From: Bacillota bacterium
GTDB taxonomy: Bacteria; Bacillota; Clostridia; Acetivibrionales; JAMNXU01
DNA: 64,000 bases
Reading direction: 5' to 3'
Assembly: GCA_023623175.1 (NCBI GenBank)
Contig: JAMNXU010000039.1
Coordinates: forward strand, 124,001 to 188,000
In this document: positions 7,205 to 43,309 of the stretch, piece after piece
Numbering within the stretch: the stretch's first letter is position 1
Layout of the letters: each line of letters opens with the position of its first letter
Notes under the pieces: generated by a model
Told to the model about the DNA's origin: nothing
Seen by the model: only the letters and a program-made list of their open reading frames with translations
The model's database searches: none
Program-made: the position numbers and the translations under genes

Positions 7205-8980
7205 TTATTTGAACAAAAACAGTTTAATCCGCCTTCTTCTGTTAAAGTATCTCCACTGTCTCATAAGATACGGCATAAGGTAATGGTCCACTCCGAAGGC
7301 TCTGCCGGCGCCTGCCAGCATGCATATCGCCGCGGGAATGTACCACCACTGCTCGGGATACAGGCCCGTTGAAAGTATGAAGTTCACATTGAGCGCTAAG
7401 GCGCCGAGACCGGCGATGAAAGTGAATGTACCGGTAATGAAGGCCAGGCCGAGCCCGATTTCGGCCAAAACGATCATTATCTGGAAGAACAGCGCGTTGG
7501 GAACTATTATATTGTCAACAATCCATTCGTACCATTGCGGAGTGTGGTCGTATACAAGCCTGAACACCGCTTCGCCCGATTCGGATACCGAAGCACTTGT
7601 CTGCGCGTCGGTGGCCCTGCCTGCCAGAATGGCCTTTGTAAGCCAGTTGTCCTGGACTTTCTTAATGCCTTCCATCAGCCACGAGTATCCAAGGAAAAGC
7701 CTGAGGGGCACGAGCCAGAATGTGGGCGTAAGCTCTGTAAGGTGTTTTTCCGGCAGGGTTCTTCTGTGCCTCTTGTGAAGCAGCTCATGCTTGATATACT
7801 TGATAACCAGTTCGAATCCGCCTATTCCGAAAAGGTAGTGTATATTCACGAAAAATTTCATCAGCACGGCAAGGGGCCTGATAAGCTGCATTCCCATGAT
7901 GTTCGTAACCGCGAACGTGCTTCCGACGGAAACCATGACGCCGTGAAGCTTGGGCGTGATTTTTCGCTTTTCCTGTCCACGAATTTCGGCGAGGATGTTC
8001 AATGCTGCACCATGTCCGGTTTGAAGCGCTGACTCAACCAGGGCGGGCAGTGTCCCGTGCTCGGTTTGGAAAGCGGAAATGTCTCCTGCGGCATACACGT
8101 TCGGATATTGGGTCTGCGCATATTCATTTACAACTATCCTGCAGTTGCCGTTTTTGTCAAGATTCATCCCGTTTGTGATACCGCATGCTTTTACGCCGGC
8201 GGTCCAGATGAGGGTTTTGGTGCTTATCTCCGTACCGTCCTTGAGCTCGACGCTGTCTGCAGTGACTTTGGTTACGGGACTGTTGGTACGGACTTCGACC
8301 TTGAGTTTTCTTGTCAGGTAATCAAGGGACTTTTGGATTCCGCGTTCCTTCAGATGGGTAAGAATCTTGTCCAGCGCTTCTACCAGTACAAGCCTGACCT
8401 CGTCCCTGGGAATGTCATACTCGCTGCACAGAACCCGCACCCACTGCGCCAGTTCGCCGATCATTTCAACTCCCGTAAATCCGCCGCCTCCAACGACAAA
8501 GGTGAGCAGGCTCCTGCGTTTTTCACTGTCATCGGTCTGGGAAGCTTTGACAAAGCATTCCTTTATATGCTCTCTTATCCTTATGGCGTCGTTGTAGGAC
8601 CACAAGGTAAATGCATGCTCCTTGAGGCCTTCTATATTGTAAAAATTAGGTTCGCTGCCGGCCGCAAGTATAAGGTAGTCATATTTGTACTGGGTGGTTT
8701 CGGAGGCAATTAAGTTGTTTTCGAAATCAAAGCTGTTGATTTCGTCCTTGACCAACTTGACGTCGGTATACCGGAAGATGTCTCTCAGAGGCACAATGAC
8801 GCCTTCTTCGTCAATCCTGTTTCCGGCAACTTCGTGAAGCTCCGTGAGCAGCGTATGGTACGAATTCTTGTCAATCAGGACGATTTCCAAATCATCGCTT
8901 TTGCGCTTTTTTCTTTGGAGCGTAAGCGCTGCTTCCACACCGGCATAACCGGCTCCGAGTATAATGATCTTTTTGGCCAT
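7205..8980 (-). CDS. ndh2: Type II NADH dehydrogenase with DoxX-like membrane tail
   Basis: The 591-residue protein begins with a pyridine nucleotide-disulfide oxidoreductase module (residues 1-400): FAD site IIILGAGYAGVEAAL, NAD(P) site VGGGGFTGVEMIGEL, and the FAD-closing motif YAAGDISAF. This is the NDH-2 fold, which oxidises NADH and passes electrons to quinone at the membrane surface. Residues 420-570 add several hydrophobic helices (LRLFLGYSWLMEGIKK, MIVLAEIGLGLAFITGT, WWYIPAAICMLAGAGRAF) resembling the DoxX family. Normal NDH-2 is about 400 residues. Ndh2 of the Gram-positive extracellular electron transfer locus also has an extra membrane domain, and the divergent apbE-eetA-eetB-dmkB genes fit that assignment. 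The start follows GGAGGTAT. Confidence 0.85.
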   Translation of the reverse strand: MAKKIIILGAGYAGVEAALTLQRKKRKSDDLEIVLIDKNSYHTLLTELHEVAGNRIDEEGVIVPLRDIFRYTDVKLVKDEINSFDFENNLIASETTQYKYDYLILAAGSEPNFYNIEGLKEHAFTLWSYNDAIRIREHIKECFVKASQTDDSEKRRSLLTFVVGGGGFTGVEMIGELAQWVRVLCSEYDIPRDEVRLVLVEALDKILTHLKERGIQKSLDYLTRKLKVEVRTNSPVTKVTADSVELKDGTEISTKTLIWTAGVKACGITNGMNLDKNGNCRIVVNEYAQTQYPNVYAAGDISAFQTEHGTLPALVESALQTGHGAALNILAEIRGQEKRKITPKLHGVMVSVGSTFAVTNIMGMQLIRPLAVLMKFFVNIHYLFGIGGFELVIKYIKHELLHKRHRRTLPEKHLTELTPTFWLVPLRLFLGYSWLMEGIKKVQDNWLTKAILAGRATDAQTSASVSESGEAVFRLVYDHTPQWYEWIVDNIIVPNALFFQIMIVLAEIGLGLAFITGTFTFIAGLGALALNVNFILSTGLYPEQWWYIPAAICMLAGAGRAFGVDHYLMPYLMRQWRYFNRRRRIKLFLFK

Positions 8981-9034
8981 CGACTATATACCTCCATAAA
9001 TTTCAGTTTGATAAATATTTATCATTAGGGTTCA

Positions 9035-9063
9035 TATAAAAATCTTTGTTAATATTCCGGCAA
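9035..9063 (-). promoter_or_regulatory. Putative ndh2 promoter
   Basis: On the minus strand, TTGCCG (9063-9058) and TTTATA (9040-9035) are separated by 17 bases. The -35 hexamer lies inside the first Rex-like palindrome, so a bound repressor would block it. The hexamers are imperfect and this is a prediction. Confidence 0.4.
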
Positions 9064-9090
9064 TTAAAATCATTGTTAGTATTCCAACAA
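9046..9090. promoter_or_regulatory. Two tandem Rex-like operators
   Basis: Two 18-base imperfect palindromes, TTGTTAATATTCCGGCAA (9046-9063) and TTGTTAGTATTCCAACAA (9073-9090), lie 27 bases apart before ndh2. The consensus known for clostridial Rex is TTGTTAA-N4-TTAACAA; site 1 has a perfect left half, site 2 matches 11 of 14 fixed positions. Rex senses the NADH/NAD+ ratio and controls ndh in Bacillus. That Rex acts here is inference. Confidence 0.55.
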
Positions 9091-9274
9091 TGTTTACCGG
9101 AGAAACATTTATTGCATATTTTTATCAAAAAAATATTCTGACTTTTTGATTCTATTATAAAAACAATCAGACCGCAATACTCCAAATTTACGTCATTACA
9201 CCTTATTTTACTCTTTTTACAATACAGGCGAAAAAAAAGTGAATTTGTCGGCAATCGAGTTTATGCGTCTGTTC

Positions 9275-9302
9275 TTGATATACTGTCGGTATAATATATA
9301 AT
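9275..9302 (+). promoter_or_regulatory. Putative apbE operon promoter
   Basis: TTGATA (9275-9280) and TATAAT (9297-9302) with a 16-base spacer lie 45 bases before the apbE start. Both hexamers are near consensus. A second TATAAT (9331-9336) lacks a good -35 box. Confidence 0.55.
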
Positions 9303-9347: not shown

Positions 9348-10391
9348 ATGCGAACAAAATCAATTATTAAGATATTTTTTTTGCTGATCGTTCCCTTAAT
9401 TGTCACGTCCTGCAGCCGCGGGGAAGAACCGCATTACAGCATGCAGGAATTTCACATGGGTACAATAATAACGGAAAAGGTTTACGGGGAAAATGCCGAA
9501 AAAGCCGCACGCGAAGCCATGGACAAAATAGTTGGAATTGAGGGTTTGATGAGTCTTGACGCGGAGGGCAGCGAAATTAAAAAATTGAATGACAATTCGG
9601 GAAAAAGCTGGGTTGAGCTTAGTCCCGAGACTATATATGTGCTTGAAAAATCGAAAGAATTTTCAGACTTGAGCGGCGGCACATTTGATATTACCGTCGG
9701 GCCCCTGGTGAAGGCTTGGGGAATCTCCACGGACAATCAAAGAATACCCGGGGATGATGAGCTCAAAAATCTCGTATCGCTGACGGATTACAATGATTTG
9801 CTGATTGACAAATCGTCAAACAGGGCGATGCTCAAGAGGGAAGGCCAGATGGTGGATCTCGGCGGAATAGCGAAAGGCTATGCGGCCGACTGTGCCATTG
9901 AAATATACAAAAAACATGGGATTAAATCGGCGATCATCAACCTTGGCGGAAACGTAAAGGTGCTGGGATCAAAACCCGACGGCACGCCGTGGAAAATCGG
10001 GATCCAGAATCCGAGGGCGCCGATAGGGAAGATAGTAGGCATTGTGGAAGTAACAGACAAAACGGTGGTATCATCGGGAGACTACCAGAGATATTTTATC
10101 GAGGATTCGGTACGGTACCATCATATAATTGATCCCAGGACGGGACGGCCCGCCGATTCCGGCCTCATGGGCGTTACGGTCATCACCGACAGTTCCATTG
10201 ATGCCGACGCGCTTTCCACCGCGGCTTTTGTGCTGGGGCTGGAAAAGGGAATGGAGCTGGTGGAAAGCCTTGATGGAGTGGAGGCTGTATTTATTGACGT
10301 CGACAAAAAGATTTATGTTACAGACGGATTGAAGGGAAAATTCATTTTTGAAGATGAAAGCAAGGAATATGAGTATGTTGAGGAAAGGTGA
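9348..10391 (+). CDS. apbE: FAD:protein FMN transferase, lipoprotein
   Basis: ApbE (FmnB in extracellular electron transfer loci) transfers FMN from FAD onto Thr or Ser of extracytoplasmic proteins. The 347-residue product starts with a lipoprotein signal ending in LIVTSC, so it is anchored outside the membrane. Family motifs are FHMGTIITEKVYG, GGTFDITVGPLVKAWG, MVDLGGIAKGYAAD (flavin and metal site), INLGGNVKVLG, TVVSSGDYQRYF and HHIIDPRTGRPAD, with the closing DADALSTAAFVLG. It leads a run of four close genes (apbE-eetA-eetB-dmkB). The substrate flavoprotein is not in the window. Confidence 0.93.
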   Translation: MRTKSIIKIFFLLIVPLIVTSCSRGEEPHYSMQEFHMGTIITEKVYGENAEKAAREAMDKIVGIEGLMSLDAEGSEIKKLNDNSGKSWVELSPETIYVLEKSKEFSDLSGGTFDITVGPLVKAWGISTDNQRIPGDDELKNLVSLTDYNDLLIDKSSNRAMLKREGQMVDLGGIAKGYAADCAIEIYKKHGIKSAIINLGGNVKVLGSKPDGTPWKIGIQNPRAPIGKIVGIVEVTDKTVVSSGDYQRYFIEDSVRYHHIIDPRTGRPADSGLMGVTVITDSSIDADALSTAAFVLGLEKGMELVESLDGVEAVFIDVDKKIYVTDGLKGKFIFEDESKEYEYVEER

Positions 10392-10749
10392 CATTGTACT
10401 TGTCGCGGTAATGATTCTTGTTGTTGCCGCCGGGTATTATATAATTAATTTGACGAGGAGCTCCGGGGACGGCGCCGTCGCGGTGATAAAGCTAAACAAT
10501 GAGGTAGTGAAAAAAATTGATTTGAACAGTGTTGCCGGGACCGAACTGGTCCGGCTTGAAGGTAAATACAGCAATGTCATTGCGGTGGAAAAGGGCCGCA
10601 TTCGGTTCCAGGACGCGGACTGCCCTGACAGGCTGTGCGTGAATACCGGATGGATTTCACTGCGCGGAGAAACGGCCGTGTGCCTGCCCAACAAGGCTAT
10701 GATTGTAATTGAAGGCGAAGACACTGCAACCGACGGAATTGCTTACTGA
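10375..10749 (+). CDS. eetA: NusG domain II protein, EetA-like
   Basis: A 124-residue protein with one N-terminal membrane helix (IVLVAVMILVVAAGYYII) and an outward NusG-II-type beta domain, with segments VAVIKLNNEVVKKIDL, FQDADCPDRLCVNTGWI and AVCLPNKAMIVIEGE. The paired Cys in CPDRLC are typical of this family. It overlaps apbE by 17 bases; ATG 10375 lies 8 bases after CAAGGA and is preferred over the track start 10348. Proteins of this type occur next to ApbE and Gx-type membrane proteins in flavinylation and extracellular electron transfer loci, where the Listeria member is called EetA. The molecular role is not known. Confidence 0.75.
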   Translation: MLRKGDIVLVAVMILVVAAGYYIINLTRSSGDGAVAVIKLNNEVVKKIDLNSVAGTELVRLEGKYSNVIAVEKGRIRFQDADCPDRLCVNTGWISLRGETAVCLPNKAMIVIEGEDTATDGIAY

Positions 10750-10763
10750 TGTCAGGAGAAATG

Positions 10764-11273
10764 ATGAGAAAAACCAGGCGTATTGTATTAATTTCCATAA
10801 TGATAGCACAGGCCCTTGTATTGTCCGTGGCAGAGTCCTGGTTCCCGATTCCGGTGCCGGTGCCCGGCGTAAAACTGGGGCTTGCGAATATTGTTACGAT
10901 AATGGCGATCGTTTATTTTACAACTGCCGAAACGTTTCTTATAGTTTTGCTTCGCACCGTCATGGCCTCATTTTTTACCGGAGGTCCTGTGATTTTGCTT
11001 TTCAGCGTAACGGGCGGGATACTGAGCACGCTTGTAATGGCGCTGCTTTACAGGAAGTTTTCGAAGGTATTCAGCCTGGTCGGCATAAGCATTGCAGGTT
11101 CGGTAACCCACAACATCGGCCAGTTGGCGGTGGCGAGCCTTGTAATGAAAAGCGTTTCGGTGTTCGGCTATTTGCCCGTGCTCATTATTTCCGGCATAAT
11201 TATGGGATTTTTTGTGGGATTGTGCAGCACCTTTCTGAAAAGGGCTCTTGATAAGGCCGGATTATCAATTTAA
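10764..11273 (+). CDS. eetB: Gx transporter family membrane protein, EetB-like
   Basis: This 169-residue integral membrane protein belongs to the family often annotated as heptaprenyl diphosphate synthase component I or Gx transporter. It has about five helices and the family segments ESWFPIPVPVPGVKLGLANI and GSVTHNIGQLAVA, an ECF-S-like look. The start at 10764 follows AGGAG; the track start 10749 overlaps the eetA stop but precedes the Shine-Dalgarno. It lies between eetA and the polyprenyl synthase. In Listeria the equivalent gene is, to my recollection, eetB, required for extracellular electron transfer. Confidence 0.75.
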   Translation: MRKTRRIVLISIMIAQALVLSVAESWFPIPVPVPGVKLGLANIVTIMAIVYFTTAETFLIVLLRTVMASFFTGGPVILLFSVTGGILSTLVMALLYRKFSKVFSLVGISIAGSVTHNIGQLAVASLVMKSVSVFGYLPVLIISGIIMGFFVGLCSTFLKRALDKAGLSI

Positions 11274-11289
11274 AGACTGGGAGAGAGAT

Positions 11290-12261
11290 ATGGATTTCTG
11301 GGACAGACATCCGGTAATTAAAAAGGAACTGCAGAAGGTTGAAAAACTGATTGAGGAGTCCGTGGTATCAAGAAACAGTCTTTTGTCCCGCGTCATTGCA
11401 GAGCAGTTCAGCGCCGGGGGCAAAAGAATCAGGCCGGCCCTCGTCCTTATTGCGTCCAAATTCGGAAAAAACAAGGGAAAAAGGGTTTTGTCGATGGCCG
11501 GAGCCGTTGAGATCCTCCACACGGCCACGCTTATACACGATGACGTCATCGACTGTGCGGGACTTCGCCGCGGCAGGGAAACCCTGTGCCGGCAACACGG
11601 AATAAATATGGCCGTTTATGCCGGGGATTACCTGTTTACAAGGGCAGTCCTGATGCTTTCGGGAGTACTGCCGGCGGAAAAGCTCGAACTCATCGCGAAG
11701 GCAATCAAGTCCATATGCGAAGGGGATGTTGACCAGTACAGGGACAGGGACAGCATTGACGTGAGCGTGTTAAGATATTTGAAAAGGGTCGGAAGAAAGA
11801 CCGCGGTGTTGTTCGGAGCGGCCTGCAGTCTCGGAGCCTACGCGGGCAAGTGTTCACCCGATGTAACGCGGAACCTTGTTGTTTACGGATATTCCTACGG
11901 TGTAGCATTCCAGATAAGGGATGACCTGATGGATTTCATATCCACTACTGCAACGGAAGGGAAACCCGTGGGCAAGGATTTGATTGAAGGCGTCGTAACG
12001 CTTCCTGCCATATATTCAATTCAAAACAATCCTCAGTTGAAAAATGAGTTCAGGGCTTTCTTTGAAGGAGAGCGAAACAGTGAGAATGCCGGGAGACTGA
12101 TCGAACTCGTGAGACAGTCGGGAGGTATTGAAAGAGCGGCGAGGCTGCTTGAAAAATATATTGAAAGAGGTTTGGCGGCGCTGGAACGGCTGCCCGACAA
12201 TTATTACAGGTCAGTCCTCGAAGAACTTATCCGCGGGCTCAGCCTGGAGGAGTTTCGATGA
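11290..12261 (+). CDS. dmkB: Polyprenyl diphosphate synthase
   Basis: A trans-prenyltransferase of 323 residues that builds a long isoprenoid diphosphate, probably the tail of a (demethyl)menaquinone. Both aspartate-rich motifs are present, DDVID in LIHDDVIDCAGLRRG and DDLMD in QIRDDLMDFI, plus GGKRIRP and the KTA segment GRKTAVLFGAAC. ATG 11290 follows GGGAGAGAG; the track start at 11248 overlaps eetB. It ends 4 bases into priA. Together with the NDH-2 next door it suggests a dedicated quinone pool, as DmkB does in the Listeria locus. The general hepT/ispB-type role is the alternative. Confidence 0.85.
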   Translation: MDFWDRHPVIKKELQKVEKLIEESVVSRNSLLSRVIAEQFSAGGKRIRPALVLIASKFGKNKGKRVLSMAGAVEILHTATLIHDDVIDCAGLRRGRETLCRQHGINMAVYAGDYLFTRAVLMLSGVLPAEKLELIAKAIKSICEGDVDQYRDRDSIDVSVLRYLKRVGRKTAVLFGAACSLGAYAGKCSPDVTRNLVVYGYSYGVAFQIRDDLMDFISTTATEGKPVGKDLIEGVVTLPAIYSIQNNPQLKNEFRAFFEGERNSENAGRLIELVRQSGGIERAARLLEKYIERGLAALERLPDNYYRSVLEELIRGLSLEEFR

Positions 12262-33006: not shown

Positions 33007-33056
33007 AACCGGGTTGTCAAAGCTGATATGAGGCGAAACCAAACAGAAATATTCAA

Positions 33057-33170
33057 AAGACCCTCCCTTGATGTGTACTCGTTGTTTTTGGTATCACGCA
33101 ATCGAACTACTGAGTATAATAATACCAATGAAAAGACAACAGGACCCAGGGAGGGTCTTATATTTTTATC
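33057..33170 (+). terminator. Long terminator-like stem-loop after larA-like gene
   Basis: AAGACCCTCCCT (33057-33068) pairs perfectly with AGGGAGGGTCTT (33148-33159), followed by ATATTTTT. An inner pairing GTTGT...GGTAT with ATACC...ACAAC extends the stem inside the 80-base loop. It is too long for a plain terminator and may be a folded RNA or a small inverted-repeat insertion that now ends transcription. Confidence 0.6.
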
Positions 33171-33443
33171 CATGATTTCTTAACACAGCCACAAATATAC
33201 AAATTCGCATACATTACCAGCCATGTAATTTTTGTTAATTAAGTCACACAAGTATTATTTTTATGTGATTTTTGCACTATTTTATTTATGCAAAACTTTA
33301 TTAATTTAAATTATTAAGTTCACATAAAACCACATAATTACTCAATTTTAAGCCCCCTCGTTATGTTTTAATTAAGTTTCAAAATGCTTAAATTATCCTG
33401 TTAATTTGATTACATACAGTGCCTGTCACGATTTTAACAAAGG
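33171..33443. other. AT-rich upstream region of the accessory operon
   Basis: About 270 bases of very AT-rich DNA without ORFs. It contains TCACA and TGTGA half-sites (TCACACAAG...TTATGTGA, 33242-33268) and TTCACATAAAACCACATAA (33320-33338), which could bind a CRP/FNR-type regulator; the spacing does not fit a clear consensus. Confidence 0.35.
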
Positions 33444-33473
33444 TTTACATAATAAGTTTACAAGAATTATACT
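33444..33473 (+). promoter_or_regulatory. Putative promoter of the accessory operon
   Basis: TTTACA (33444-33449), an 18-base spacer and TATACT (33468-33473) lie about 170 bases before the hydrolase gene, leaving a long leader. Confidence 0.5.
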
Positions 33474-33546
33474 TGTACTTGCAGGGCCGATTTAATTGCC
33501 CAGATGCTGCAGAATTGGCCGGTTACAATGATTTTAGCCTCTGACA

Positions 33547-33584
33547 CTGACCCTGGTCCGTGAAGCTGACCCTTGGTCAGTGAA
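33547..33584 (+). promoter_or_regulatory. Two tandem palindromic repeats in the operon leader
   Basis: Two adjoining 19-base copies, CTGACCCTGGTCCGTGAAG and CTGACCCTTGGTCAGTGAA, each hold a GACC-GGTC palindrome; the second is perfect as CTGACC-ctt-GGTCAG. Together they can also form one larger hairpin, CACTGACC with GGTCAGTG, followed by AATTTTT. This would suit a repressor operator or an attenuator downstream of the promoter. Confidence 0.5.
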
Positions 33585-33646
33585 TTTTTATCACCTGGCA
33601 TTGTACCCGCCGATTTCACAGTCATATAACCTAAGGAGGCAAAATA

Positions 33647-42124: not shown

Positions 42125-42179
42125 ACAATTCATCCGGCCTTCGAATCGTTTTCGACGCTGCGGCTCGTCGGAGAATTGT
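42125..42179. repeat. Dispersed structured repeat, copy B
   Basis: The core TTCGAATCGTTTTCGACGCTGCGGCTCG matches copies A and C with few changes. It is enclosed by ACAATTC (42125-42131) and GAATTGT (42173-42179), which can close a stem. Confidence 0.7.
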
Positions 42180-42215
42180 TATAAAAATAACGAAAAAGTA
42201 CAAAATACTACAAGA

Positions 42216-42233
42216 TTGTTAAAGAATTAACGC
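42216..42233. promoter_or_regulatory. Rex-like operator before MtaA-like gene
   Basis: TTGTTAA-AGAA-TTAACGC matches the clostridial Rex consensus TTGTTAA-N4-TTAACAA at 12 of 14 fixed positions. It lies just before a TATAAT (42246-42251), in the -35 region. It is the best Rex-like match noticed in the window. Confidence 0.55.
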
Positions 42234-42268: not shown

Positions 42269-43309
42269 ATGATGAATTCGTTGGAACGCGTATCGTTGAT
42301 TTTGCAGCACAAGGAAGCGGACCGTGTTCCGGTTTACCCGCTGATTAACAGTATTTCAAGAAAATATACCGGTATCAGTTATGCTCAATGGGCAAGGGAC
42401 GCTGAAAAATGCGCCGAGTCTATTATCAAGGCAACGGACGACATTGACGTTGATTGCATATGCTCCCTCGTAGACCTTTCGGTTGAGGCAGCTGATTTCG
42501 GACAGGAGATAGAATATCCTGAGGATGCGGCGGCCAGGCCTTCTCACAGCAACTGGCTGATTAAAACCGCCGAAGAATATTCAAAAATCGAGCCTGTCAA
42601 TCCCCGTAAAACACCCAGGATGAGCGGGCATATAAAGCTATGCGACATACTTGTGAAAGCCAGGGGAAAGGAGAAACCCGTAGTGGCCTTTGTATTTGGC
42701 CCTCTTGGCGTTCTGAGCATGATGAGGGGACAGCAGGATCTTTTCATGGATTTGTATGACGAGCCGGACAGAGTGAAATCTGCACTGGAAGCGGTTAATG
42801 AAACCCTCCTGGAATATGTCAGGGCGCTTATTGAAACCGGCGTACATGCCGTAATGTTTGATACGCTTTTTGCCTCCCAGTCAATAATGAGCAAAAGCAT
42901 GTGGGACGAGTTTGAAGGCATTTACGTGGAAGAACTGGCGCAGTATGTCCATGGGCAGGGCCGGATGGTCATGATACACAACTGCGGAACGGGAATTTAC
43001 TTTGACGCGCAGATAAAACGCATGAAGCCCGAAGCAATTTCATTTTTGCACATTCCCGACGACTGCTCTTCCTTTGCGGAGGCCAAGGAAAAATACGGAA
43101 ACGTGACGACTCTCATAGGCCATATTCCTCCGGAATGGCTGATTACCGCTACTAAGGAAGAAATAGAGGAGGAATGCAGGAAGGAAATAGAGATGCATAA
43201 GAAAGGCGGCGGGTTCATACTGGCGACGGGATGCGAATTTCCTTCGGTCCTGGGACCGGAAAAGGCCAAATATATCGTTGAGGCCTGCAGAAAATACGGG
43301 AAATATTAA
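42269..43309 (+). CDS. MtaA/UroD-family methyltransferase
   Basis: A 346-residue barrel of the uroporphyrinogen decarboxylase superfamily. The zinc ligands of the corrinoid methyltransferase branch (MtaA, CmuA) are visible: HxC in MVMIHNCGTG and the later Cys in FILATGCEFPSV, plus GHIPPEWLITATKEE. True HemE has a different N-terminal Arg motif and no such zinc site, so a heme role is unlikely. The enzyme probably moves a methyl group between a corrinoid protein and a thiol or folate; no corrinoid protein gene is in the window. The start follows GGAGGTG. A terminator-like hairpin follows. Confidence 0.85.
   Translation: MMNSLERVSLILQHKEADRVPVYPLINSISRKYTGISYAQWARDAEKCAESIIKATDDIDVDCICSLVDLSVEAADFGQEIEYPEDAAARPSHSNWLIKTAEEYSKIEPVNPRKTPRMSGHIKLCDILVKARGKEKPVVAFVFGPLGVLSMMRGQQDLFMDLYDEPDRVKSALEAVNETLLEYVRALIETGVHAVMFDTLFASQSIMSKSMWDEFEGIYVEELAQYVHGQGRMVMIHNCGTGIYFDAQIKRMKPEAISFLHIPDDCSSFAEAKEKYGNVTTLIGHIPPEWLITATKEEIEEECRKEIEMHKKGGGFILATGCEFPSVLGPEKAKYIVEACRKYGKY

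Follow-up and report, generated by a model that had tools for sequence, protein, structure and literature searches.

We find that ndh2, which encodes a type II NADH dehydrogenase in the 64-kb stretch of Bacillota DNA analysed here (the window), is probably a member of the Rex regulon (probability about 0.6), with the palindrome at 9008-9025 as its candidate operator. The first-pass annotation had also placed ndh2 under Rex, but through two boxes further upstream; Rex control gains support from a rex gene, a Rex regulon, the palindrome at 9008-9025, which that annotation missed, and sites before the NDH-2 genes of relatives, whereas the two boxes that it flagged do not appear to be the operators.

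The features of the locus are collected in Table 1. The ndh2 product (Pyr_redox_2, 139.5 bits, domain profile) matches 4nwz, YjlD and S. aureus NDH-2 in the PDB over residues 4-397, and residues 414-569 give a weak DoxD match. The products of the three genes that follow apbE are, we presume, EetA-like, EetB-like and DmkB-like, in that order. A 367-bp gap of 72% AT, which holds both flagged boxes, separates ndh2 from the divergent apbE, and the promoter-like site of apbE lies ~185 bp from the boxes, which therefore concern ndh2 only. The claim that a flagged box covers the −35 of ndh2 holds in so far as a weak TTAACA overlaps box 1, but a stricter standard promoter scan did not find an ndh2 promoter.

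Table 1 Features of the ndh2-apbE locus, in window positions.
Feature	Position	Strand	Description
ndh2	7205-8980	-	Type II NADH dehydrogenase with C-terminal membrane (DoxX-like) extension, 591 aa
Best Rex operator candidate	9008-9025		TTGATAAATATTTATCAT; perfect 16-bp palindrome inside; 28-45 bp upstream of ndh2 ATG
Possible weak ndh2 promoter	9024-9052	-	−35 TTAACA (9052-9047), 17 bp, poor −10 CCTAAT (9029-9024); 9/12 consensus bases
27-bp direct repeat, two copies	9036-9090		Includes boxes 1 and 2; 22/27 identity
Flagged box 1	9046-9063		TTGTTAATATTCCGGCAA; one good half-site, without palindrome
Flagged box 2	9073-9090		TTGTTAGTATTCCAACAA; imperfect palindrome, copy 2 of 27-bp repeat
Promoter-like site of apbE	9275-9302	+	TTGATA-16-TATAAT; 11/12 consensus bases
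apbE	9348-10391	+	FAD:protein FMN transferase family (FmnB-like); ApbE 321.5 bits
NusG domain II protein	10348-10749	+	NusG_II 106.6 bits
Heptaprenyl diphosphate synthase component I family membrane protein	10749-11273	+	Hpre_diP_synt_I 156.4 bits
Polyprenyl diphosphate synthase	11248-12261	+	polyprenyl_synt 211 bits

The absence of rex had been named in advance as a finding that would speak against Rex control, and a single clear rex gene is present (G000:C25). Its product combines a winged-helix N domain (PF06971, 78 bits) with a Rossmann NAD(H) domain (CoA_binding, 75.7 bits), reaches equivalog score (NCBIfam Rex equivalog, 326 bits; cut-off 233) and aligns over its full length with solved Rex proteins, best with 3wg9 (DNA-binding domain 50/63 identical). 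The clostridial Rex consensus is the 18-bp palindrome TTGTTAANNNNTTAACAA (PMC8457756), and T. ethanolicus Rex recognises ATTGTTANNNNNNTAACAAT (PMC5886521). The sole perfect consensus match of the genome is found 60-77 bp upstream of a hydrogenase operon, hydrogenase being a conserved Rex target in clostridia (PMC8457756). Good sites also precede adhE, pta, PFOR and a further hydrogenase operon, all of them known Rex-type targets (PMC8457756), and a less clear one precedes rex. Judged from these promoters, a Rex regulon can be recognised in this genome. In its own adhE promoter (L143/L015, G000:C14, from 47944), two Rex-type sites at −91 and −70 have a spacing of exactly 21 bp, an arrangement that recurs in L144, L145 and L147. 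A search with TTGTTAANNNNTTAACAA at up to three mismatches was discarded as too loose to serve as evidence, since it returned 245 genome sites against 315 for the reversed control.

Sites were scored with a clade matrix of 39 sites (78 half-sites) from the hydrogenase and adhE promoters of relatives, with the window's own genome left out; as many as 60 genomes supplied the promoters, almost all of them from the order to which the window's genome belongs. Matrix scans covered the 64-kb window and the promoters, and genome-wide searches were pattern searches. Hydrogenase promoters of relatives show a near-invariant TTGTTAA-type site, and their adhE promoters show tandem sites, of which several are spaced by 21 bp and many include a TTATCAA (TTGATAA) half. 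At a score of at least 12, the matrix found sites in 29/30 hydrogenase and 18/24 adhE promoters, the two sets that trained it, and in 14/30 promoters of PFOR, which did not; the corresponding counts in reversed sequences were 0, 3 and 0.

The palindrome at 9008-9025 is the top Rex match of the window by the clade matrix (18.4; P 0.001, region shuffle), and its score falls in the range spanned by this genome's adhE (19.5, 18.2) and PFOR (20.0) promoters, scored with a matrix built from other genomes. With a hydrogenase-only matrix it ranks third (P 0.015), and it does not stand out (10.3; P 0.14) when the matrix is built from published sites of other genera. It thus scores above shuffled AT-rich DNA as a clade-type Rex palindrome, but not when published sites alone are used. 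Its two halves both follow the less common TTGATAA form, a pairing absent from the training sites. Similar half-sites are seen repeatedly in relatives' adhE arrays; since the clade matrix scores the palindrome highly and the published-site matrix does not, its assignment leans on this half-site variant.

An alternative interpretation is that 9008-9025 binds a regulator of the Crp/Fnr family rather than Rex. Its TGATA-N6-TATCA core has the 16-bp 5-6-5 layout that fits this family, and the genome encodes at least two Crp/Fnr-family proteins, which could use a 16-bp palindrome. We consider this improbable because adhE-type Rex arrays share half-sites with 9008-9025 and because the closest other genome copy of the TGATA-N6-TATCA pattern precedes a gene resembling PEP carboxykinase. 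With at most one mismatch, the TTGATAANNNNTTATCAA pattern has only two matches in the genome, namely 9008-9025 and the site before this PEP carboxykinase-like gene. The latter is a perfect TTGATAANNNNTTATCAA palindrome (G000:C28:5155-5172; L173), and the gene, named from its translation only, is possibly a further Rex target. A Fur/PerR site at 9008-9025 was rejected on layout, Fur/PerR boxes being 7-1-7 and of odd length.

Rex-like sites also occur elsewhere in the window. Two good Rex-type sites 40 bp apart, at 42176-42193 and 42216-42233, have the third and second highest clade scores in the window (15.2 and 16.2, respectively) and lie 5′ of a uroporphyrinogen-decarboxylase-like gene (42269-43309; named from sequence only). 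Rex-like matches are also found at 33155, 33232, 33398 and 33423, within the intergenic region (33007-33646) flanked by LarA-like and phosphatase/phosphodiesterase-like genes.

The ssb-ndh2/divergent apbE layout is widespread in the order. By the clade matrix, a Rex-type site scoring at least 12 is present in 9/29 NDH-2 promoters (own included) compared with 0/29 reversed sequences, in a set whose members are not independent of one another. All eight other genomes with such sites have rex. The sites include TTGTTAATTATATAACAT at −40 (L025), TTGTTAAACAATTAGCAA at −136 (L043) and, before a longer type of NDH-2 with about 50% identity, six tandem TTGTTAAA-units of the form TTGTTAAAATNTTAGCTAA with a 21-bp period (L045 1310-1434, genome G007), which resemble an array of several Rex sites along a single face of the helix. 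The remaining 20/29 promoters have no site, and the positions of the sites vary, none sharing the same place; the link between Rex and NDH-2 thus seems to be recurrent rather than conserved. In three relatives, a long-type NDH-2 gene and rex share a contig (G007:C27, G010:C52 and G022:C26) and lie about 10-16 kb apart. A search for close relatives among genome contigs returned one distant match only.

These comparisons bear on the possibility that all of the sites are chance palindromes without a regulatory role, as might be expected of an intergenic region of 72% AT in which a perfect 16-bp palindrome arises in 2.5% of shuffles, and as the lack of a position common to orthologs might suggest. 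We consider it unlikely, because 9008-9025 reaches P 0.001 to 0.015 with hydrogenase, adhE or combined training and because Rex-type sites are enriched before NDH-2 across relatives.

The flagged boxes had been described as two 18-base palindromes 27 bases apart. Both sequences are present and their starts are 27 bp apart, but the palindrome is confined to box 2, in which 7/9 positions pair (9/11 if extended to 9071-9092, a quality that turns up in 19% of shuffles of the gap); pairing counted on the sequence of box 1 is 4/9. The boxes have 4 (box 1) and 3 (box 2) mismatches to the TTGTTAANNNNTTAACAA consensus and, relative to the shuffled gap, their clade-matrix scores are 3.2 (P 0.74) and 6.4 (P 0.34). 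The published-site matrix gives P 0.33 and 0.12, and 73% and 16% of shuffles reach their scores with the hydrogenase-only matrix. The low scores are due to half-site positions 6 and 7, which are A/T in at least 77/78 training half-sites and G in none; G occupies position 6 or 7 in 3/4 half-sites of the flagged boxes: one side of box 2 has it at position 7 and the opposite side at both positions, and the right half of box 1 is TTGCCGG. As Rex operators, then, the boxes score no better than shuffled AT-rich DNA, the very outcome that the first-pass annotation had said would tell against them.

One feature of box 2 nevertheless preserves a small chance that the boxes are real Rex sites. Its outer arms (ATTGTTAN6TAACAAT) match the T. 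ethanolicus Rex motif at 13/14 positions and, with at most one mismatch, have three matches in the genome, box 2 and two sites upstream of hydrogenase operons (the reversed pattern, as control, has 1); arms this good would arise by chance in the ndh2-apbE region with a probability of 0.2%. Tandem Rex sites moreover exist at the genome's own adhE. We nonetheless think it quite unlikely that the boxes act as a tandem pair of Rex operators blocking the ndh2 −35, because, besides their scores and the G residues absent from all 78 training half-sites, their 27-bp spacing places them on opposite helix faces, compared with 21 bp for the adhE tandem sites, box 1 has one usable half only, and the TATTCC centre common to both boxes lies outside Rex site requirements.

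The boxes are better described as parts of the 27-bp direct repeat, the best 27-base self-match of the gap (22/27 at offset 27), a similarity far above chance (equalled by 0.05% of dinucleotide shuffles, P 0.0005). Because the copies share letters that Rex does not need, the repeat might be a direct-repeat operator of another ndh2 regulator, acting alone or beside Rex. This is doubtful given that a recent neutral duplication would give the same repeat, that a genome scan for further copies of the flagged unit found no third copy above control (20 matches including both boxes; control, 33) and that neither the boxes nor the repeat unit were conserved in the NDH-2 promoters of orthologs (footprinting). 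An arrangement of two controls on ndh2, with Rex at 9008-9025 and a second regulator at the repeat, such that NADH/NAD+ and another signal jointly gate entry into extracellular electron transfer, is improbable in our estimation. We regard the tandem duplication as no more than a weak accessory Rex site, with another role or none being more likely.

RNA structure was considered at both places. On the minus strand, RNA of 9071-9092, read towards ndh2, would fold box 2 into a hairpin of 9 pairs, and a 41-nt piece containing the box folds better than its shuffles (−9.0 kcal/mol, z −2.9) and is labelled terminator-like by the scan. An RNA hairpin or attenuator at box 2 was rejected because there is no sign of transcription of that stretch. 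At 9008-9025, a 5′ leader RNA structure was not stable (z +1.0).

For Rex control through the palindrome at 9008-9025, we infer the following sequence of events. The palindrome would overlap the start of the ndh2 transcription unit, such that, when NADH is low relative to NAD+, a Rex dimer bound there would block ndh2. A rise in NADH would cause NADH-bound Rex to leave, NDH-2 would be made and NADH would be reoxidised, with electrons passing to quinone and perhaps on to flavin-based extracellular electron transfer. If so, the NADH/NAD+ ratio would set the flow of NADH to quinone, and possibly to outside acceptors, within a regulon shared with hydrogenase and alcohol dehydrogenase, and extracellular electron transfer would join the electron sinks that Rex controls in fermenting clostridia. 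The palindrome offers a simple and testable operator candidate, and the case illustrates that a consensus judged by eye can choose wrong sites adjoining the right one.

Rex control of an NADH dehydrogenase is already known and is here probably extended to a new gene context; a limited search of the open literature found no paper linking Rex to a clostridial ndh2 of the electron-transfer type. Rex binds ndh2 in S. avermitilis (gel shift) and represses yjlC-ndh in B. subtilis (PMC5355995), and the present genome resembles both in that it encodes Rex and has a Rex-type palindrome upstream of the gene for an NADH dehydrogenase. It differs from them in that the organism is an anaerobe, the NDH-2 has a membrane extension, apbE lies opposite, the operator is of the clostridial type and control is predicted from sequence. 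The predicted regulon is like those of C. thermocellum and Caldicellulosiruptor bescii in its consensus type and its core targets hydrogenase, PFOR and rex, but ndh2 is not among the Rex targets named for those species in the accessible portions of the two reports (PMC8457756; PMC6391272). In Listeria monocytogenes, the genes for flavin-based extracellular electron transfer are ndh2, eetA, eetB, fmnB, dmkB and pplA (PMC7901989). The locus studied here likewise clusters ndh2 with an ApbE-type FMN transferase and with NusG-II, Hpre_diP_synt_I and polyprenyl synthase genes, a likeness by domain families, and because the neighbours of ndh2 resemble the Listeria locus, the electrons may leave the cell; unlike in L. 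monocytogenes, ndh2 is divergent here.
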